Assembly (NCBI RefSeq): GCF_003269275.1
Contig: NZ_QLTS01000001.1
Span: 186,001 to 250,000, forward strand
Length of the DNA stretch: 64,000 nucleotides
Reading direction: 5' to 3'
Source: Phascolarctobacterium faecium DSM 14760
GTDB lineage: Bacteria; Bacillota; Negativicutes; Acidaminococcales; Acidaminococcaceae
The notes under the pieces are model-generated. The model worked only from the letters and a program-made list of their open reading frames with translations. It made no database searches and was not told the DNA's origin. The stretch's first letter is position 1. Each line of letters begins with the position of its first letter. Of the stretch, positions 38,430 through 49,210 are shown piece by piece. A program made the position numbers and the translations under genes.

Positions 38430-39200
38430 CTATAATATGTGACCATCTATACTTCCACCATCATTACCGGCTGATAGCCATATAGATTGGCCTGTAATTT
38501 TTTTGCTCATATCGCTTAATAAAAATATGATAGTATCAGCTACATCTTCTGCCTCTAACATACCAAGAGGATAGATCTTCTGCATGGCTTCTTGAGTAGT
38601 ATTGTCTTTAAACCCGGCGCCCATTTCCGTATCGACGGCTTCAGGGCAAACTGCATTAAACCTGATTAACCTGTTAGACATTTCCTTTGCTGCTGCAACA
38701 GTATACGAATTTATTGCTGCTTTGGAAGCCCCATAAACGCCCTGCGATTTATCAGGTAAAAGCGCAGCTCTTGATGAAACGCTTACAAAAGAAGCCCCAT
38801 TATTACTGATGCGCTTCGATGAAAAAGCTTTTGCTATCGCCATCATCGACACTATATTAGTGGCAAATATTTTATTTATTTTTTCTTCTGTGACCGCGCC
38901 CAAAGGCAGCATAGCATAAATACCAGCAGAAAATACACACCCATCCAGCTTGATATTATCCATGCTGACCGCAGTTTTAACTGCATTTTGTGCTGCTGAA
39001 AAATCGGAAACATCACAAATTAATATATTATGCCCATCACCGTCAAGCATCTCCAGAGTTTCCTGAAGTTTTTCTTCATTCCTGCCAACTAATACCAATC
39101 TTGCTCCAAGCTGGCTTAACTGAAGCGCTACCTGTTTGCCAATACCAGAAGAAGCACCAAAAATCAGATACTTTTTCCCATTAAAGTTTAAATACTCCAT
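38430..39200 (-). CDS. Short-chain dehydrogenase/reductase, putative 3-oxoacyl-carrier reductase
   Basis: About 256-residue classical SDR. Cofactor motif GASSGIGKQ near residue 16, NAG-equivalent SAGIYAM, catalytic serine in SVSSRAA, and Tyr/Lys in YGASKAA. The arginine in VGRNEEK suggests NADPH. The start at 39200 (MEYLNF) has GGAGG seven bases upstream and begins one base after the stop of the neighbouring SDR. With the KAS III and carrier-protein genes around it, a FabG-like step is the simplest role (inference). It is paralogous to the next SDR. Confidence 0.85.
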   Translation of the reverse strand: MEYLNFNGKKYLIFGASSGIGKQVALQLSQLGARLVLVGRNEEKLQETLEMLDGDGHNILICDVSDFSAAQNAVKTAVSMDNIKLDGCVFSAGIYAMLPLGAVTEEKINKIFATNIVSMMAIAKAFSSKRISNNGASFVSVSSRAALLPDKSQGVYGASKAAINSYTVAAAKEMSNRLIRFNAVCPEAVDTEMGAGFKDNTTQEAMQKIYPLGMLEAEDVADTIIFLLSDMSKKITGQSIWLSAGNDGGSIDGHIL

Positions 39201-39201
39201 T

Positions 39202-39954
39202 TTAGTCCTCCCAGGTTTTGGCCTCATCTACGTCGATCGCTACACCTGAAATATATTGCATGGAATCGCTGAGCAGGGCCACTACAATAGAAGCTATCTT
39301 ATCCGGCAGCATCAAATAATCGGGCAGCTCGTTAATAGCATCGCCTTCTATGGCTTTTATGGCCTGATTAGCCAGCATTTCTGTTTTTATACCGCAAGGG
39401 CAAATAGTATTGACCCTGATTTTCCTCGGCCGCAGCTCTTTGGCAGCGCTTTTCATAAAAGCGTCCATAGCTCCTTTAGACGCGCCATAGACAGCGTTTG
39501 CCGCCTGCCCATAAACGCCTACGCAGGAGGATATGCCAACGACAGCGCCGCCATCATTGAACAGCCTTTTCTGCGCCACGCATTTTAATAAAGCCATGAA
39601 AGAATAAGTATTGCTACTGAAGATCTGCGAGATATTAGCTAGTGACATACTTCTTAATGGTATCGGTACGGCTAAGCCTGCGCAATGAGCAATATAGTCT
39701 AATTTTTCGCCGTCTTTAGCGATTATATCTTTGACGGTCTCAACGATTCCGTCAAAATCTGTCAAGTCCAGCACTCGATAACTATGACCACTGCCTTCCA
39801 TTAAGGAGAGCGTTTTCTGCAATTCGGATTCCCTTCTGGCAACAATAACTACTTTAGCACCCATGGCGCTGAGTAGGATGGCCACTTCTCGGCCTACGCC
39901 GGAGGAGGCACCCGTAACTAAAACTTTTTTACCATTAAAATCAAATTTATCCAT
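39202..39954 (-). CDS. Short-chain dehydrogenase/reductase, second copy
   Basis: About 250-residue classical SDR. GASSGVGRE cofactor loop, catalytic Ser in GISSCVG, Tyr-Lys in YGASKGA, and PCG near the end of the core. ARRES after the second strand suggests NADPH. The ATG at 39954 is used because the GAGGA ahead of it fits; a GTG four codons upstream overlaps the KAS III stop. Together with the adjacent SDR it could give two sequential or alternative reductions of a carrier-bound acyl chain. Confidence 0.85.
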   Translation of the reverse strand: MDKFDFNGKKVLVTGASSGVGREVAILLSAMGAKVVIVARRESELQKTLSLMEGSGHSYRVLDLTDFDGIVETVKDIIAKDGEKLDYIAHCAGLAVPIPLRSMSLANISQIFSSNTYSFMALLKCVAQKRLFNDGGAVVGISSCVGVYGQAANAVYGASKGAMDAFMKSAAKELRPRKIRVNTICPCGIKTEMLANQAIKAIEGDAINELPDYLMLPDKIASIVVALLSDSMQYISGVAIDVDEAKTWED

Positions 39955-39962
39955 TGCTATCC

Positions 39963-41063
39963 TCACTTATAGTCTTCAAAACTCAGGCCGTCGTCGTATC
40001 TTTCTTTTACTCTAAACACAGGGAAACAATTCTGCGGCTCAACTGTAATACCAACAATACCTAAAGATAAACCAATGCCAAATCCACAAGTTAAAATTTT
40101 CCCGCTATCTTGACTAGTATTTTTATTAGAATAATGCTCGCATATAGCCAAAGGTATAGAAGCACAACCAGTATTACCATAATCAACTATAGATAGTGGT
40201 ATTTTAGAAAGCGGAAATTTAATTTTTCTGGCCAAGTTGCTGATAATAAGTTTATTAGCCTGATGACAGGCCAATATTTCATATTCATCATAATCACAGA
40301 CAAAACGCTCTTTAAAATCATTGATCATGGTAACTACTTCTTTTAAAGAAAAACGCATTACGTCCATGCCTTCCATATGAAATAAATCTCTGTAGGCACA
40401 CGCCTTTTCATAGCCAAACTTTTGCACCATAGGCCAAAAAGCATGTCTTTGACCACTAAAAGGTGAAACCAGCATCTTAAAATCACGACCAATGGATCGT
40501 AATAATCCGTATGTTGGTTCTGCATTTTCATCATATTCCAATAAAGTAGCAGACCCACCATTGCCAAAAAGCATGGGGATTTCCGAAGGTACATAGCCAT
40601 CTGGCAACTGTTCGCCTGTAGACCCTGACAATAATAATACGCTGCGGCAGCCTGAATTGATGTGCATAGCAGCCAAATATAAACCATACACATAGGCCGA
40701 ACACCCAAGCGGAATATCATAACACATGCAATCATCAGATAACCCTAATCTATCCTGCAGAATTGTTGCGGTGACAGGTTCCAAATAATCACGGCTGGAT
40801 GATGCAAAAATCAACGCATCAACCTTATTTCTGTCATAGTTTAATTCCGTTAATATTTTTTCAGCAGTGGCACAACACAAATCTGACGCAGTAACGCCCA
40901 ATCTGTGTGATGTGAAGCGCCGCTGAACACCGGTAGAGATGATAAATTTCCTGACATGTTCTTCCCCAAAAAGGTCGTTATAATCAGTGGTATACTCAAC
41001 ATCATCCGGGACACTGGCAGCTACTGCTTTGATTTTTGCGTTTTGCAAATTAAAATATGTCAT
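39963..41063 (-). CDS. KAS III-family condensing enzyme (FabH-like), copy 2
   Basis: 366-residue thiolase-fold enzyme of the 3-oxoacyl-ACP synthase III type. The catalytic triad is complete: Cys121 in PLGCSAYVYG, His267 in ACHQANK and Asn297 in YGNTGCAS. It is longer than housekeeping FabH (~320). FabH-type enzymes join an acyl-CoA starter to malonyl-ACP. Placement beside another KAS III, two SDRs and carrier proteins points to synthesis of a short acyl chain for this cluster, not bulk fatty acids. Confidence 0.9.
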   Translation of the reverse strand: MTYFNLQNAKIKAVAASVPDDVEYTTDYNDLFGEEHVRKFIISTGVQRRFTSHRLGVTASDLCCATAEKILTELNYDRNKVDALIFASSSRDYLEPVTATILQDRLGLSDDCMCYDIPLGCSAYVYGLYLAAMHINSGCRSVLLLSGSTGEQLPDGYVPSEIPMLFGNGGSATLLEYDENAEPTYGLLRSIGRDFKMLVSPFSGQRHAFWPMVQKFGYEKACAYRDLFHMEGMDVMRFSLKEVVTMINDFKERFVCDYDEYEILACHQANKLIISNLARKIKFPLSKIPLSIVDYGNTGCASIPLAICEHYSNKNTSQDSGKILTCGFGIGLSLGIVGITVEPQNCFPVFRVKERYDDGLSFEDYK

Positions 41064-41077
41064 CTAACTTCTGCCTC

Positions 41078-42178
41078 CTATTTAAAATATGTCTCGCTGT
41101 CGATACCGTCATCATAAACTTCACTTGTTTTAATAATTGGTAAACATACAGACATATCAATAGTAAAAGAAGCTACTGTCACATTAAGCCCAATACCAAA
41201 TGCCAGCGCTAATATTTTCTTATCCCCCTCATATATATTATTATTCTCAGCATAATCACATATATTTACTGCCGTACTTGCCCCTCTTGTGTTCCCAAAT
41301 CTTTCAATAGAATTTATAACCTTTTCCTGAGGTGCTTTTATTCTCTTGGCAACATTATCTATAATCATTTTATTCGCCTGATGAATAGAAACCAAATCAA
41401 AATCACTTATATCATTACCCAAATTTGCTAAAAATGTTTTTGTCGTCCGAGGAGCATCCTTAATACTAAAAGTAAATACATCAGTACCTGACATATATGT
41501 TGCATTATTATAATAAGCAGCAAATTCAAAACCTCTTGTTTGTGCAACAACGGGTAATGGGTGTCTTTCCATCCCATAAGGAGTAATCAACGACTTATAT
41601 CCGGAACCTATAGTTTCAATAGCAATATTAATAGGTGAAATATCTTCGTCTGTTTTCTCCACTATTATGGCCACACCTGCATCGCCAAAAAGCAGCCCAT
41701 CCTTATTACTTGTTTCACCTCTATTAGGATTGGCATCTCCCACTAAAAGCAATATTCTTTTACATCCAGCCATAATATTAGCACATGCCATTTGCAGTCC
41801 GAAGGGGAAGGCCGTACAACCGATATTGGAATCATAAACCAGGCCGCAGTTATCCAGTCCCAAACGATGCTGCACGATACAGGAAGTTGGTGGCACAAAA
41901 TAATCTGGCGTCTGAGTAATCATGATCAGACCGTCTATTGTATCTTTATTAATATTTAATTTTTCAAAAAGCTTATTGGCCGCTACGACGCACAGGTCCG
42001 AAGTAGTAGTTCCTACGCCATAGGCATTATACTTTTCGTAAATGCCTGTTGCTGCGCAAAATTTTTCTACTTCTCCTTCTGCAAACAGGTAATCATAATC
42101 CGACATTTTCTGGTGACGGTCGGGAACAGCAGTTGCCATACCAGCAATTTTTATACCCTTAAATTCAAAAAAATTCAT
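41078..42178 (-). CDS. KAS III-family condensing enzyme (FabH-like), copy 1
   Basis: About 366 residues, paralogue of the neighbouring KAS III. Counted from the upstream ATG at 42181, the triad is Cys122 (NIGCTAFPFG), His267 (SIHQANK) and Asn297 (FGNTRGAS), the same spacing as in copy 2, so both are probably active. The second of two adjacent ATGs fits AGGAGG best. Base composition is visibly more AT-rich than in copy 2, which argues against a recent duplication. A PqsB/PqsC-like heterodimer is an alternative, though PqsB lacks the cysteine and both copies here keep it. Confidence 0.9.
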   Translation of the reverse strand: MNFFEFKGIKIAGMATAVPDRHQKMSDYDYLFAEGEVEKFCAATGIYEKYNAYGVGTTTSDLCVVAANKLFEKLNINKDTIDGLIMITQTPDYFVPPTSCIVQHRLGLDNCGLVYDSNIGCTAFPFGLQMACANIMAGCKRILLLVGDANPNRGETSNKDGLLFGDAGVAIIVEKTDEDISPINIAIETIGSGYKSLITPYGMERHPLPVVAQTRGFEFAAYYNNATYMSGTDVFTFSIKDAPRTTKTFLANLGNDISDFDLVSIHQANKMIIDNVAKRIKAPQEKVINSIERFGNTRGASTAVNICDYAENNNIYEGDKKILALAFGIGLNVTVASFTIDMSVCLPIIKTSEVYDDGIDSETYFK

Positions 42179-42200
42179 CATTTCCTCCTAATTTTCTTCT

Positions 42201-42836
42201 TCAAAATTCCATTTCTCGAGCAGGGTTGCCAAAAGCCCGCTTTCCAGCCTTTACTTTGCGCAAAACAACACTGCCGACACCGACATAGGCATCATCTTCA
42301 ATAACCGCGTTTGGTGCGGCGGAACAATTTCCGCCCATAAATACACGGTTACCTATTTTTACATGACCCATGATGTTGCACCAGGAAGAGATAGTAGAAA
42401 AGTCTCCTACTTCAACATCGTGCCCCAGTCCACAGGCAAGTAAAGTACAAAAATCGCCTATCTTAATATTTACCGTCATGCCGAAGCCGGAATAGATAAC
42501 GGCTCCTTCACCGATGGTATTGAATCGGCCCAAGGCCACATAGGGATGAATGATACTTTGAAAAACCGCCCCTTTTGCTTTCAGCATCGCAACTATTTTT
42601 TCTTTGACTTGTGGACTGGCGATCCCCAGCGCCAAAACATCATTTGCCTGCGGAAGATAATCTTTGATGGTACCAACGACCTGATAGTCACAATCGATGC
42701 TATCCAGTGCCTGCAAGTCGTCATCTAAAAATCCTACTATATTCCACTGGACACCTCGTATGGCGTGAATGTCTTTGATAATATTCAGCACTTCCCGCCC
42801 GCAGCCACTTGCACCGACGATATACAAGTTTTTCAT
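42201..42836 (-). CDS. PglD/NeuD-family sugar N- or O-acyltransferase
   Basis: 211 residues. N-terminal Rossmann-like half (YIVGASGCGREVLNII, FLDDD) and a C-terminal left-handed beta helix of hexapeptide repeats, the arrangement of PglD and NeuD. The catalytic histidine is likely the one in GLGHDVEVGDFSTI. PglD acetylates the 4-amino group of a UDP-trideoxy sugar with acetyl-CoA. With PglF-, PglE- and PglC-like genes in the same cluster a bacillosamine-type role fits. Because it sits directly before the KAS III/ACP block, the donor might instead be a carrier-bound acyl group (inference). Confidence 0.88.
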   Translation of the reverse strand: MKNLYIVGASGCGREVLNIIKDIHAIRGVQWNIVGFLDDDLQALDSIDCDYQVVGTIKDYLPQANDVLALGIASPQVKEKIVAMLKAKGAVFQSIIHPYVALGRFNTIGEGAVIYSGFGMTVNIKIGDFCTLLACGLGHDVEVGDFSTISSWCNIMGHVKIGNRVFMGGNCSAAPNAVIEDDAYVGVGSVVLRKVKAGKRAFGNPAREMEF

Positions 42837-42881
42837 TTACTCACCTGCCGAAATAAGATTTAAACAATATCCCCATTTGAT

Positions 42882-43616
42882 TTATCCTGGTTTATCGTAA
42901 AGCTGCAATGCCTCGTCTACATTACCCACAAAGCGCAAATTGCTTTTGTCTATCCAGACTGCTTTTTGGCAGATCCTTTTGATATCCGCCGCAGAATGCG
43001 ATACCAAAAGCACAGTAGTGCCGCTATTCATCATATCTTCCAACCTCTTATGGCACTTGTCCTGAAAAGCCTGGTCGCCTACGGCTAATATCTCGTCAAC
43101 TACTAATATTTCAGGCTTGACCATGGTAGCGATAGAAAAACCCAAACGGGCAATCATGCCGCTGGAATAGTTTTTTACGGGGACATCTATAAAATCACGT
43201 AGTTCACTGAAGTCTATTATTTCATCATATTTTTCCAGCATCAGCTTTTTGCTGTAACCAAGGATCGCGCCATTTAAGAAAATATTTTCACGGCCTGTCA
43301 ATTCGTAATCAAAGCCTGCCCCTAATTCGATCAACGGCGCGATAGAACCATTTACTTCAACGCTGCCTTTGGTTGGAGTCAAAATACCGCTGATGATTTT
43401 GAGCATGGTGCTTTTGCCGCTGCCATTAGCGCCAATCAAAGCACAGGATTCGCCTTTATCCACAGAAAAGCTGATGTTATTCAAGGCCCAAAATTCATCA
43501 AAGCTGCAACTTTGAAACTTTATTTTTTTTATAAGTAAATCTTTTAAACTATCCACACGTTCAGACGCCAAATTGAAACACATGGAAACATTATCTGCAA
43601 CAATAATTTTTTGCAC
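42882..43616 (-). CDS. ABC exporter ATP-binding subunit for surface glycan (Wzt-like, short form)
   Basis: About 244 residues. Walker A GANGSGKST, Q-loop region, signature YSSGM, Walker B ILVVDE and the H-loop in VSHSAAD. Sequence style is that of the Wzt/TagH/KpsT group. The C-terminal carbohydrate-recognition domain found in long Wzt proteins is missing. The start is taken as the GTG at 43616, five bases after AGGTGG. It pairs with the adjoining Wzm-like permease to export an undecaprenyl-linked glycan from the cytoplasm. Confidence 0.92.
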   Translation of the reverse strand: MQKIIVADNVSMCFNLASERVDSLKDLLIKKIKFQSCSFDEFWALNNISFSVDKGESCALIGANGSGKSTMLKIISGILTPTKGSVEVNGSIAPLIELGAGFDYELTGRENIFLNGAILGYSKKLMLEKYDEIIDFSELRDFIDVPVKNYSSGMIARLGFSIATMVKPEILVVDEILAVGDQAFQDKCHKRLEDMMNSGTTVLLVSHSAADIKRICQKAVWIDKSNLRFVGNVDEALQLYDKPG

Positions 43617-43625
43617 TTTTACCAC

Positions 43626-44408
43626 CTATATATATAAAATAAAATCATTCTGTTTGCGCTTGAACACATATAAGCCTATGACGAGCATACAGAAAGTGAA
43701 GGCCAGACAGATCAAGTGCTCTGTCATGGTTGGCCACTGACCATAAACAGTTATCTTGCGGAAAAATTTTATATAATTATAAAGCGGATTAAAGACCAGC
43801 AGTTCTCTGAGCCACTCGGGCAATAAACTTTCCGGGTAAAAAATAGGCGTCAGATAGTTAAAAGCCGTTAAAAAAATACTGTACAAATACTGGACATCTC
43901 TAAAAAACACTACCAATACAGATAATAAAAGCCCCATGCCTATGCAGAAGACTAAAACCTGCACTAATATAAATGGCAGCAGTATTATAGTTATTGAAAA
44001 GGTGACATCGGTAGCAATGATCACTATAAAAAGGGCAATCATAGAAAGCAGCATGCTTGTAAAACTTGATATCACTCTGGACAGGGGAAAGATGTATTTA
44101 GGCAGATACACTTTTTTTATAAGGGCCGCGCCGCCTAAAATAGAACCCATCGCCATGCTGGTAGCTTCGGAATAAAAGCCGAAAATAAGCTGTCCTGCCA
44201 ACAGATATACAGGGTACTGGGGTATATCGAAGCGAAACATATTGGAAAAAACGATCGTTAAAATAATCATCATCAGAAGCGGATTTAAAACACTCCATAA
44301 ATATCCTAAGAAGCTGCGCCGATACCTGATTTTTAGATCACGCTCGACTAATACCTGTAATAACCAACTATATTTAACTAATCTTTTAGCACTGTCTACT
44401 ATATGCAC
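43626..44408 (-). CDS. ABC exporter permease for surface glycan (Wzm-like)
   Basis: About 260 residues with six membrane helices, ABC-2 type. The cytoplasmic start VERDLKIRYRRSFLGYLWSV is typical of Wzm/TagG, as are the NPLYNYIKFFR end block and a conserved YPVYLLAGQ turn. GTG at 44408 is preferred as start, ten bases after AGGAGA; the frame is open ten codons further. Neighbours are Wzt downstream and a hexapeptide acetyltransferase upstream. Confidence 0.92.
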   Translation of the reverse strand: MHIVDSAKRLVKYSWLLQVLVERDLKIRYRRSFLGYLWSVLNPLLMMIILTIVFSNMFRFDIPQYPVYLLAGQLIFGFYSEATSMAMGSILGGAALIKKVYLPKYIFPLSRVISSFTSMLLSMIALFIVIIATDVTFSITIILLPFILVQVLVFCIGMGLLLSVLVVFFRDVQYLYSIFLTAFNYLTPIFYPESLLPEWLRELLVFNPLYNYIKFFRKITVYGQWPTMTEHLICLAFTFCMLVIGLYVFKRKQNDFILYI

Positions 44409-44468
44409 AATAAAAAATTCTCCTATGAGTGATATCACCTAAATACCTGCAAACTGGTTAGGTCAAAT

Positions 44469-45029
44469 TCAAGGCTTCTGCTCAGACCAGAAATATTGTT
44501 CCTGCAGCTTCGCCAGTTTTTTGTCATAAATCGAGTACCCTTGCCTCAGCCAAGGGTAAGCTTTGGTCTTTTCCATAAATTTTTTCTCATAATCATCAAA
44601 AGAACCTATCACTTTTGCAGGAACGCCGCCCACAATGGAATTTGCAGGAACATCTTTAGTAACACAGCTACCAGCAGCGATGATAACATTATCGCCAATA
44701 GTGACATCGTACATGATCATGCTGTTACTGCCAATCAAGACATTGTTGCCGATAGTTATTTTACCTACTCGCCTGATATGCTGATCCATGTTATTTTTGT
44801 ACAAGATAACATCGCCAAAAATATCGTGGGTAATAAATCTTACGCCGGAAGCTACTTTTACATTGCTGCCGAAAGAGAGCAAATGCGGTTCTACACCGAA
44901 ATTGTAGATTTGAAAATAACATCCTTCGCCCTGAGCATGAAAATAACCTGTTTTTTTACAATATGCCGCACGCTTGCCCCCATCCCTCAGAAGGAACAAC
45001 CTTAATAACTGTAAATATCTTCTAAACAT
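44469..45029 (-). CDS. Hexapeptide-repeat O-acetyltransferase
   Basis: 186 residues of the maltose/galactoside acetyltransferase-like left-handed beta helix. Hexapeptide turns run through [20 protein letters not shown]-type sequence, with [20 protein letters not shown] as the typical end. The putative catalytic His is in FITHDIFGD. It shares a base with the PglC-like gene stop (TAATG). A role in acetylating a sugar of the repeat or the initiating sugar is inferred from position. Confidence 0.85.
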
Positions 45030-45634
45030 TACTTATTCCCCTTAAATTCTTCCATAGTGACCGAGGTTGCCGATGATATGCCTTCCCTGCCGAAAACTTT
45101 CATTACCGTCTGGAAGATGATCTTGCAGTCACCATAAAAGGTGATGTTTTTTACATATTCCAAGTCGTAGTGAAATTTTTCTTCCCAGGTGATACCATTA
45201 CGGCCATTGACTTGTGCCAGGCCAGTTAATCCCGGTTTTACATCATGGCGATGCTTCTGCTCCTCGTTATACCGCTCCAGATATTGCACTAATAAGGGCC
45301 TTGGCCCCACTATAGACATATCGCCATTTAAAATATTCAACAGTTCAGGAAGCTCGTCAATAGACGTAGAACGTAAGAATTGGCCGAATCTGGTCAGCCT
45401 GATCTCGTCAGGTAATAGATTTCCATTTTCATCTTTTGCATCCGTCATGGTGCGGAATTTTAAAATACCAAAGATCTTCTCATTTTTTCCCGGCCGTAGC
45501 TGTTTAAAAAATACCGGTGCCCCCAGTTTTATGCGTATCAAAAAAGCTGTTAAAATCAGCAATGGCGATAAAATGACCAAAGCCAGAAACGATAAAATGA
45601 TATCTAATATTCTTTTTATAAAATTTTTATACAT
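45029..45634 (-). CDS. PglC-like undecaprenyl-phosphate phosphosugar transferase
   Basis: About 201 residues, small monotopic phosphoglycosyl transferase. A single re-entrant membrane helix at the N-terminus is followed by the catalytic core [19 protein letters not shown] with the catalytic Asp-Glu, MSIVGPRPL and [13 protein letters not shown]. It starts glycan assembly by moving a sugar 1-phosphate from a UDP-sugar to undecaprenyl phosphate. The start at 45634 follows AGAGGA; the frame is open six codons further with TTG. Confidence 0.93.
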
Positions 45635-45644
45635 GGCTTCCTCT

Positions 45645-46919
45645 TCATTCAAAACAGCTTTTTATGATCTCAATAATCCTGTCCTGCTCCTGCGTCGTCA
45701 TTTTGATATCACTGGGCAGGCACACGCCCCGCTCAAAAATATCCATGGCCACATCGGCAGAATTTCCGTTTGGAACTGCTTCGGCGCCATTAATACAGTA
45801 CGTAGCTTTTGCCCTATCGCTGCCTGCCCGGGTAACAAAAGCATTCATTCGATATAGGGGTTGCATGTGCATCGGTTTCCAGATAGGACGCCCTTCAGCG
45901 TTCATCGCCGCTAAAGCTTCCAAAATTTCTGTAGGACAGGTTTTTCCTTTTTCGCTTAGATAAAATGTTTCCTTTTCACTACATACTTGTTTGCACATGG
46001 CTTCGGAGTCAATAAGCAGACAGCTTAACCAATAGTTTGGCTGGCTGTTGACAGCATCAAATGGATTCATTTTGACAGGCAAATTTTTAAAGCCCTTTTT
46101 ATAACGCATGTAGATTGCCTTTTTTTGGGAAATATGTTCTTCTAAATAAGGCAGCTGACCCCGTACGACGCCTGCGATAACGTTGCTCATGCGATAGTTA
46201 TAACCAAGTTCTTCATGCTGGTACCATGGTACATTTTCACGGGCTTGAGTCGACCACTTGCGCACTTTATCGGCTGCTGCTGCGTCATCTGTTAAAAACA
46301 TTCCACCAGACGAACCGGTGATAATTTTGTTGCCGTTAAAAGAAATAGCGTTATAGTTACCAAAATTTCCCGTCTGCACACCTTTATAAGTCGCGCCCAG
46401 TGATTCGGCAGCGTCTTCGATGATAACTGCGCCATGTTTATCACAAACGGCTTTGAGTTCATCCATCTTTCCGGGACTACCGTAAAGATGGGCCAAAACG
46501 ACAACCTTTACCTCTGGATAAAGTTCAAAAGCCTTTGACAATGCTGCAGGGTCTATATTCCAGGTAGCATATTCGGCATCTATAAAAACAGGTACTCCGC
46601 CTTCATACACGACAGGGTTAACTGTGGCGGCAAAAGTCATATCGGAGCAAAAAACCTTATCACCGTTTTGCACCCCGGCCAATTTGACTGCCATATGCAA
46701 AGCCGCAGTACCAGAGGCAAGAGCAACGGCATATTTGCAGCCAATTTTTTCGCATAGCATCTGTTCCACTGCGTTGATATTTTCACCAACAGTAGACATC
46801 CAGTTGGTTTCATAAGCTTCCTGCATATATTTAAGTTCTTCTCCGTGCATGGTAGGCGAACTGAGCCATACTTTCTTTATCAGCGGAGAAAACTTCTTTA
46901 GAACATTTTCTTTCAACAA
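45645..46919 (-). CDS. DegT/DnrJ/EryC1-family sugar aminotransferase (PglE-like)
   Basis: 424 residues, PLP-dependent sugar aminotransferase. The PLP lysine is in SFNGNKIITGSSGG, the Asp-Ala-Ala-Glu site in VIIEDAAESLGA, and GSPGKM follows the HLYG motif. It would aminate the 4-keto sugar made by the CapD-like enzyme encoded just upstream. TTG is the likely start, near AAGGTG. Its stop overlaps the TTG-containing leader of the PGT gene. Confidence 0.92.
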   Translation of the reverse strand: MLKENVLKKFSPLIKKVWLSSPTMHGEELKYMQEAYETNWMSTVGENINAVEQMLCEKIGCKYAVALASGTAALHMAVKLAGVQNGDKVFCSDMTFAATVNPVVYEGGVPVFIDAEYATWNIDPAALSKAFELYPEVKVVVLAHLYGSPGKMDELKAVCDKHGAVIIEDAAESLGATYKGVQTGNFGNYNAISFNGNKIITGSSGGMFLTDDAAAADKVRKWSTQARENVPWYQHEELGYNYRMSNVIAGVVRGQLPYLEEHISQKKAIYMRYKKGFKNLPVKMNPFDAVNSQPNYWLSCLLIDSEAMCKQVCSEKETFYLSEKGKTCPTEILEALAAMNAEGRPIWKPMHMQPLYRMNAFVTRAGSDRAKATYCINGAEAVPNGNSADVAMDIFERGVCLPSDIKMTTQEQDRIIEIIKSCFE

Positions 46920-46951: not shown

Positions 46952-48796
46952 TTACTTTTTTAACGCATCTCTGTTAGGCGTATAAGTAGGCACTATCTCC
47001 TGCAATTTTCTTACAACTGCATCACCTTCGGTGATCTGTAAAATATCGACTATCTGCCTTTGTAATTCTGCTTTATCAACGTCTTTTATCTTGGCTATAA
47101 ATATTTTACTGTGCGTGGTTTTTTCGGTACCATCTTCGGCGCTCAAAAGTTCTTCAAACAGCTTTTCACCGGGTCTTAATCCGGTTATTTTTATTTCTAT
47201 ATCTTTATCGGGTATAAAACCCGATAATTTTATCAAATCTTTGGCAAGATCATAAATTCTTACAGGTTTTCCCATATCAAGTACGAATACCTCTCCACCT
47301 TTCGCCATTGCTCCGGCTTGAAGTACCAATTGACTTGCTTCAGGAATAGTCATAAAATAACGTTTCATCTCTGCATCTGTAACAGTTACCGGTCCTCCTT
47401 TGGCTATTTGTTTTTTAAACAGTGGTATTACACTGCCCCTGCTGCCAAGTACATTACCAAAACGTACTGCCACAAATCTTGTACTGCTTTCTTTATTCAT
47501 ACTTTGCACAAACATTTCAGCAATTCTTTTGGTACAACCCATAACACTAGTTGGATTCACTGCTTTATCTGTAGATATCATTACAAAGGTTTCAACTTTA
47601 TGTTTGGCAGCTGTTTCTGCTATTACTTTAGTTCCTAAAATATTGTTTCGCACTGCTTCAGATGGTTGGTATTCCATTAAAGGCACATGTTTGTGGGCTG
47701 CGGCGTGAAACACTACTTGAGGTTTAAAATAGTCCATTATAGCGTTAATTCGTTCTTCATCTCTAACATCTGCTATAATGGGCACTTTTTTTAGTTGGGG
47801 ATATTCTAAATTCATATCCTGCATTATTTCATAAATACTGTTTTCTCCTTTACCAACGAGAAGCAATTTATTAGGATACATTTTAGCAACTTGACGCACA
47901 ATCTCGCTGCCAATGCTGCCACCAGCACCAGTAATAAGCACTGTTTTCCCTGACAAGTACTTCGCAACAGCTACGTTATCCAGTTCCACCGGATCTCTGC
48001 CTAGTAAGTCTTCAACATCAACAGGGCGTAATTGACTTACACTCACACTGCCTTCTATAATTTCATATACCCCAGGTAAAATAGTTAATTTGCAGCTTGT
48101 TTTTTTACAAATGTTGATAATTTCTTTGATATTTTTTCCTTTTACTGAAGGCATGGCAATAATAATTTCATCAATTTCATAGTTATCGGCAAGCACTGCT
48201 ATATCGTCTCTACTTCCTAATACTTTTGTACCAACCATATATTTTCCTATTTTGGTTTTATCGTCATCAATAAAACCAATAACTTGTCTTTTTCCTATAT
48301 GGTACTGATTTAATTCCCTGAGAAGCAGTGCACCGGCATCACCTGCGCCAACTATCAATACTTTGTCTTTTTTACTTGATATAAATTTATGTTTGGATTT
48401 ATTAATAAAACAACTGTAGATTCTAAAGAACAATCTACTGCCGCCAACAAATAAAACAAGAATAGAAGCAGTAAAAATATATAAAGAGCGTGGTAACGCC
48501 AAATCTATATAAATAGAAATCCCATACCAAGACAAAGCTGCAACAATATTTGCAGCAACGATGGCAACAAGTTCTATGCTACCAGCATAACGCCATACTC
48601 TACCATATAGTTTAAAAACAAAATATACTACCAAATGCACAGCCACTGCTATAGGTAATTGTGAGATAAGCATTTCAAGATATTTTTGGGCGATTGCAGT
48701 ATCTTCAAAGCGTATATAAATACTAAAAAATGCAGCACTTATAATACAGATGGTATCTAAAACTACAACTAAAAGTGGCAATAACAAATATCGCAA
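46952..48796 (-). CDS. Membrane UDP-HexNAc 4,6-dehydratase (CapD/PglF/WbpM family)
   Basis: 614 residues. Four N-terminal membrane helices (first ~120 residues), then a CoA-binding-like Rossmann unit (VGAGDAGALLLREL), then the catalytic SDR domain starting TGAGGSIGSEIV. The active-site region is STDKAVNPTSVMGCTKR, the Met/Lys type seen in PglF and WbpM. The product would be a UDP-4-keto-6-deoxy sugar. The start is TTG at 48796 with GGGGATGAG upstream; no in-frame ATG is nearby. First gene of the glycan/acyl operon. Confidence 0.93.
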   Translation of the reverse strand: MRYLLLPLLVVVLDTICIISAAFFSIYIRFEDTAIAQKYLEMLISQLPIAVAVHLVVYFVFKLYGRVWRYAGSIELVAIVAANIVAALSWYGISIYIDLALPRSLYIFTASILVLFVGGSRLFFRIYSCFINKSKHKFISSKKDKVLIVGAGDAGALLLRELNQYHIGKRQVIGFIDDDKTKIGKYMVGTKVLGSRDDIAVLADNYEIDEIIIAMPSVKGKNIKEIINICKKTSCKLTILPGVYEIIEGSVSVSQLRPVDVEDLLGRDPVELDNVAVAKYLSGKTVLITGAGGSIGSEIVRQVAKMYPNKLLLVGKGENSIYEIMQDMNLEYPQLKKVPIIADVRDEERINAIMDYFKPQVVFHAAAHKHVPLMEYQPSEAVRNNILGTKVIAETAAKHKVETFVMISTDKAVNPTSVMGCTKRIAEMFVQSMNKESSTRFVAVRFGNVLGSRGSVIPLFKKQIAKGGPVTVTDAEMKRYFMTIPEASQLVLQAGAMAKGGEVFVLDMGKPVRIYDLAKDLIKLSGFIPDKDIEIKITGLRPGEKLFEELLSAEDGTEKTTHSKIFIAKIKDVDKAELQRQIVDILQITEGDAVVRKLQEIVPTYTPNRDALKK

Positions 48797-49029: not shown

Positions 49030-49057
49030 ATTATACCACACGAGTCCCCCCCCGCAA
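49030..49057 (-). promoter_or_regulatory. Promoter of the glycan/acyl operon with a G8 tract
   Basis: Minus strand: TTGCGG (49052-49057), 16-base spacer, perfect TATAAT (49030-49035) preceded by TGG. A run of eight G (49046-49053) covers the end of the -35 and the start of the spacer, so each gained or lost G changes the distance of TTGC from the -10. Confidence 0.65.
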
Positions 49058-49179
49058 GACATTTACAAATAAATGAATCAAACTTATTCTGGTCTTGCTA
49101 TTACTTTTGCATCGCTCTCTACGCGATCGCGATGCTTAGCTAACGCGATACATGTTTGTAAAAACCCGCAGGACATAAA

Positions 49180-49210
49180 AAAACAACGTCGCTTTCAGCG
49201 ACGTTGTTTT
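49180..49210 (-). terminator. Intrinsic terminator of the RND-to-arnT operon
   Basis: Fourteen-base perfect stem (49180-49193 with 49197-49210) around three bases; on the minus strand it ends in a run of seven T. It is 35 bases after the ArnT-like stop codon. Confidence 0.9.

Follow-up and report, generated by a model that had tools for sequence, protein, structure and literature searches.

Does a run of eight Gs inside the promoter of a glycan operon make that operon phase variable, or is it a fixed part of the promoter? The site lies on the minus strand of the window, as we call the whole 64-kb stretch of DNA that was analysed. The original prediction had described TTGC followed by G8 at 49046–49053 and an extended TGG-TATAAT at a 16-base spacing, and direct reading of the sequence confirmed both. 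The plus strand at the promoter reads ATTATACCACACGAGTCCCCCCCCGCAAGAC in the window, and the minus-strand promoter (49060–49030) is GTCTTGC-GGGGGGGG-ACTCGTGTGG-TATAAT, with G8 at the position of GGGGGGGG. The -35 was taken as TTGCGG, two tract Gs being counted as its end, which gives a spacer of 16 to TATAAT. The elements at the site are the following:

49030–49038, minus strand: extended -10, TGG-TATAAT (TATAAT 49035–49030, TGG 49038–49036)
49046–49053, minus strand: G8 tract in the promoter spacer, the sole G/C run of at least 7 in the 64-kb window
49052–49057, minus strand: putative -35 TTGCGG, its last two bases being the first two tract Gs
49054–49060, minus strand: right arm of an inverted repeat, GTCTTGC, immediately 5' of the G tract
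49092–49098, minus strand: GCAAGAC, the matching left arm of that repeat, at a distance of 31 bp
49180–49210, minus strand: terminator-like hairpin of 14 pairs, then a T-rich tail

The hairpin (49210–49180), a strong one, is predicted to close the upstream gene and to insulate the promoter from it. A GCGATCGC-rich palindromic stretch (49107–49160) lies between this terminator and the left arm. A simple sigma-70 scan did not list the promoter, since TTGCGG fits the -35 at only 3 of 6 positions, and a search for plasmid similarity found none.

The operon behind the promoter

Downstream of the site, the same strand carries the following genes:

46952–48796, minus strand: first gene, a CapD/FlaA1-type nucleotide-sugar dehydratase of 614 aa (Polysacc_synt_2, N-terminal CoA_binding_3)
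45645–46919, minus strand: DegT/DnrJ-type aminotransferase
45029–45652, minus strand: bacterial sugar transferase (initiating phosphoglycosyl transferase)
42201–45029, minus strand: hexapeptide acyltransferase, ABC-2 permease, ABC ATPase and PglD-type acetyltransferase
38430–42181, minus strand: two ACP-synthase-III-like genes and two short-chain dehydrogenases, probably part of the glycan operon

The description of the site as a glycan operon promoter thus held up, the promoter-like element standing upstream of CapD-type, sugar transferase and ABC export genes; as at porA, the promoter precedes a surface determinant. The putative leader of the CapD-type gene is approximately 225 nt long. The poly-G promoter was absent at the closest CapD relatives (74–76% identical), and we therefore ruled it out as the ancestral capD promoter.

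A dispersed family of poly-G promoters

The G8 had also been put forward as the longest G/C homopolymer in the window, and no second run of even 7 was found there. From the base composition of the window, however, approximately 0.7 runs of at least 8 G or C are expected per 64 kb, so that a bare G8 homopolymer proves nothing and could be an ordinary chance run near a chance -10. The own genome (2.3 Mb) was analysed by pattern searches and in individual stretches. With the 300 bases around the site as query, the same promoter was found at two further places in this genome. The pattern GTCTTGYGGGG has 24 exact matches in it, and the reversed pattern has none. All 24 copies carry at least G5, and the -10 behind it is extended or nearly so, with the family pattern GTCTTG[C/T]-G(5-9)-...TRTGN-TATAAT. 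A search of 250 class genomes for poly-G plus extended -10 gave 249 matches in 55 genomes (long tracts being scored in several registers), against 6 for the reversed pattern. These two comparisons refute the chance homopolymer, which we regard as having next to no probability, and it is close to certain that the poly-G promoter family is real.

With a stricter pattern, the named matches were nearly all from Negativicutes (Phascolarctobacterium, Succiniclasticum, Anaerovibrio, Selenomonas, Schwartzia and others), with one Candidatus Avidehalobacter MAG in addition. Among 97 motif copies from the own genome, its relatives and the named genomes, 88 had a good -10, nearly always extended. Most of these 88 tracts are just G7 (54 copies), the others being G5 (3), G6 (4), G8 (19), G9 (7) and G10 (1), and the longer tracts usually substitute the next bases instead of inserting Gs. 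The window copy fits this cassette, with its GTCTTG[C/T]-like arm, a tract within G5–10 and an extended -10 at a spacer of approximately 16 bp. In the non-subscription literature searched we found no cassette of this dispersed, matched-arm kind; no paper there linked Acidaminococcaceae with 'phase variable', and papers with both Phascolarctobacterium and phase variation were off topic as judged by title. A dispersed poly-G promoter family of Negativicutes is apparently undescribed so far.

The genes behind the 24 own-genome promoters are largely surface determinants: 16 promoters precede adhesin, secretion transporter or glycan/capsule genes, 6 precede operons of XRE-type regulators and 2 precede other genes. 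Exported autotransporter- or YadA-like proteins account for 8 of the 24, several of the autotransporter-like calls being made by eye from a signal peptide and repeats (some were scanned, and L014 had no Pfam match), and ShlB/FhaC-type secretion transporters account for 2. The 6 at glycan or envelope genes comprise the operon in the window, a sugar transferase assigned by similarity, CpsB/CapC with two tandem promoters, a TibC-type glycosyltransferase and a sulfatase-family protein. One of the 6 XRE-type regulators is followed by a YadA-type protein and another comes after an Rrf2-type fragment. The cassette also occurs upstream of repeated SLH-type porins in another genus. At these repeated porin genes (L055, L079 and L099–L111; genomes G005 and G019), the poly-G promoters are near-identical and several lie at contig ends. 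An rRNA or tRNA promoter was considered for the contig-end copies and rejected: there was no rRNA match, and the readable downstream gene is an SLH-type porin.

Matched arms and a constrained spacer

In sister promoters, the 7 to 8 bases before the tract recur in inverted orientation, mostly 28–35 bp upstream. The arm pairs include GTCTTGC/GCAAGAC, CGAAGTG/CACTTCG, CGAAGCG/CGCTTCG, AACTTGCC/GGCAAGTT, AGCTTGTC/GACAAGCT and GTCTTGAT/ATCAAGAC; the arm sequence varies between genes and species and the pairs stay matched. The arms were tested by scoring the inverted match at a gap of 26–37 bp against 500 permutations. The mean arm match was 5.23 in the 31 promoters without GTCTTGY (permuted maximum 4.16) and 4.59 in the 81 canonical promoters (permuted maximum 4.46), the promoters being related and hence not independent trials. 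The window copy has a matching inverted arm at a gap of 31 bp, and a clear left arm is missing in some copies, notably in most own-genome copies of the GTCTTGT class. Arms that vary in sequence and still match are difficult to account for unless a protein recognizes both, and arm-mediated regulation by a DNA-binding protein is likely from these sequence comparisons.

One of the XRE proteins encoded beside many copies plausibly reads the arms. A small XRE gene lies directly behind approximately 15 of the 88 promoters, the window copy not being among these, and other members of this expanded XRE family carry the cassette with different arms. The own genome has approximately 20 small XRE regulators with the near-invariant recognition helix SQT[HN][LM]SN, and the family is expanded in related genera too. 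We rejected this helix as proof of an arm binder: it is not specific to poly-G promoters and is the same in most XRE relatives without the cassette, so that XRE is a candidate binder with a weak assignment. As in autoregulated operons of the Cro/CI type, an inverted-repeat element is combined with an XRE gene directly behind about one sixth of the promoters. Cro/CI-type (XRE, HTH_3) regulators usually use close half-sites, whereas the arms described here lie approximately 32 bp apart.

The inverted arms could also point to a site of recombination or exchange, G tract included, at which promoters are swapped between loci or which forms an invertible element. Many copies are near-identical and some lie at contig ends, and gut genomes of the Negativicutes type are rich in invertons (PMC11892184). 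Yet the arms are just 6–8 bp long and differ between loci, an invertible segment of approximately 32 bp would exclude the -10, and most copies have unrelated sequence downstream, which leaves the exchange site improbable. An invertible promoter (inverton) as such was rejected, the -10 being outside the arms, which do not enclose the promoter.

One-base slippage in the tract had been expected to alter the spacer, and the tract does sit within a strongly conserved 16-bp spacer. The spacer is 16 in 64 of the 88 copies with a good -10; some copies depart from it (range 14–19). The tract and the rest of the spacer add up to 18 (spacer 16) in 69 of 112 dereplicated promoters, and the variance of this sum is 0.87, compared with a mean of 1.45 and a minimum of 0.96 in 10,000 shufflings. 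Most frequent are G7TACA, G8ACA and G9CA, in which the tract lengthens by substitution and the spacer is unchanged; the window copy has the G8AC form. This compensation indicates that the length of the spacer is important and that slippage does not account for all tract variation, and it suggests that promoter strength would depend on tract length. Since many members keep the spacer at 16 by substitution, the G tract is more than a slippage device. The inverted repeat, the spacer kept at 16 and the membership in a dispersed family all go beyond the original prediction.

The same substitutions favor a regulated promoter class that is not phase variable, in which the G tract would be a fixed recognition or structural element of set length, contacted by the regulator or stiffening the spacer, and in which length differences would be slow drift. 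This explanation also fits the matched arms, which indicate a binding protein, and the retention of the tract while the adjoining flank varies (GTCTTTAC, GTCTTTTA, GGCTTGT, ACTTGCC). MutS, which is intact in the own genome, points the same way, and slippage may therefore be slow. Its weak points are the members with spacers of 14–19 and the differences in tract length and reading frame described below, and we consider the fixed element a serious contender that is nonetheless the less probable account.

Tract-length differences and possible surface switching

Near-identical promoters that differ by tract length alone stand against a tract of set length. The clearest pair is L055 (G7) and L079 (G8), which have 96% identical flanks and differ only in the tract, and tract length also differs between the near-identical promoters L057 (G7) and L058 (G8). 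The close sister promoters L061 (G10) and L125 (G9) differ in addition by two other gap bases, and L088 (G8) and L093 (G9) by one other gap. L019 (G7) and L028 (G6) are sister promoters that are both in the own genome.

Coding tracts bear on the same point. Tracts of at least G7 number 39 in the own genome, which is not above the composition-only expectation, and approximately 23 of them are promoters of the poly-G cassette type. Others affect surface genes, namely an autotransporter, TonB-dependent receptors, an adhesin-like gene and a ShlB-type transporter, in each case at the signal peptide or the N-terminal region; a few lie in ordinary genes (a binding protein and a MATE-like transporter, each identified by eye). 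In the assembly, four such surface-gene tracts separate two different reading frames, where homopolymer assembly errors are a caveat, whereas sister receptors are in frame. Frame-broken G tracts at surface genes correspond, in the assembled sequence, to a contingency-locus pattern, and they too speak against a fixed element.

Several of these loci deserve a description. An autotransporter-like gene (L271, C2:223600-225700 of the own genome) has both a poly-G promoter and a signal-peptide G8, with frames that differ across the tract as assembled. The signal peptides of TonB-dependent-receptor-like paralogs (L268, C11:34900-39500; L267, C7:39900-41900; L293, C4) contain a G tract, which is G7 and in frame in three copies and G8 and out of frame in one. 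A ShlB-type transporter (L299, C8:68056) and an exported adhesin-like gene (L288, C3:6144) show an apparent frameshift at a 7-base G/C tract. A capsule-type tyrosine kinase identified by eye (L303, C12:13885) carries a further G7 in its tyrosine-rich tail; the tandem poly-G promoters upstream of CpsB/CapC are approximately 4 kb away.

The explanation that we favor, with a slight lean of confidence, is a dispersed cassette that combines an arm-reading protein with a slipping G-tract spacer that alters expression of the glycan operon. The tract forms the spacer in a single copy of this cassette, which is made of a left arm, approximately 32 bp, an inverted right arm, G7–8, (T)ACANNN and an extended -10. 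A DNA-binding protein, plausibly the cassette-adjacent XRE, would read the paired arms over and upstream of the -35. Replication slippage in the G tract would then shift the spacer off its preferred 16 bp, and expression of the glycan operon would change heritably and reversibly, as at meningococcal porA. Weighing against it are the prevalence of G7 tracts and of the 16-bp spacer, the lengthening of tracts by substitution, the intact MutS, the unremarkable genome-wide count of tracts, the CapD relatives that lack the promoter and the weak XRE assignment. We infer the transcription start, the protein binding, the slippage rate and the effect on expression. For the window copy, porA-like switching is a plausible prediction, held with about the same restrained confidence, and slippage of the G-run probably tunes the surface and sugar-coat genes of the family up and down.

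The porA poly-G tract sits between -35 and -10. In both systems a surface determinant has a promoter with a poly-G tract, in which slippage would alter the spacer, and switching is known for porA and predicted here. The present promoter differs in its short tract, a spacer firmly at 16, the extended -10 and the matched inverted-repeat arms, and also in being one of at least 24 such promoters in a single genome. We know of no shared promoter cassette for Campylobacter contingency loci. Poly-G promoter phase variation of PorA in Neisseria meningitidis is established (PMC3639595), and the phasome of Campylobacter consists of simple-sequence contingency loci (PMC6321876) with intragenic and intergenic tracts (PMC8355987). 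As in Campylobacter, a single genome has G tracts at surface and glycan genes, with some tracts out of frame, but here more than half of the tracts of at least G7 are in one promoter type. Replication-slippage ON/OFF control of the surface structures of a gut commensal, which we predict here from sequence, is shared with the slippage switch of the Bifidobacterium breve pilus (PMC9187656), which lacks a shared promoter family.

The poly-G family stands before adhesins, porins, glycan operons and their regulators. More tentatively, and with considerable doubt, it could be a modular promoter used class-wide in diderm Firmicutes, with matched operator arms that can be exchanged to give regulator specificity and a slipping poly-G spacer that gives heritable noise, so that some two dozen surface genes and their own XRE regulators form a stochastic, wired network of surface display. 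G-tract phase variation is best known from host-adapted pathogens. If the favored explanation is true, the operator type of the poly-G cassette would be one undescribed before, and gut and rumen commensals of the Negativicutes would own a large, coordinated surface-switching repertoire.
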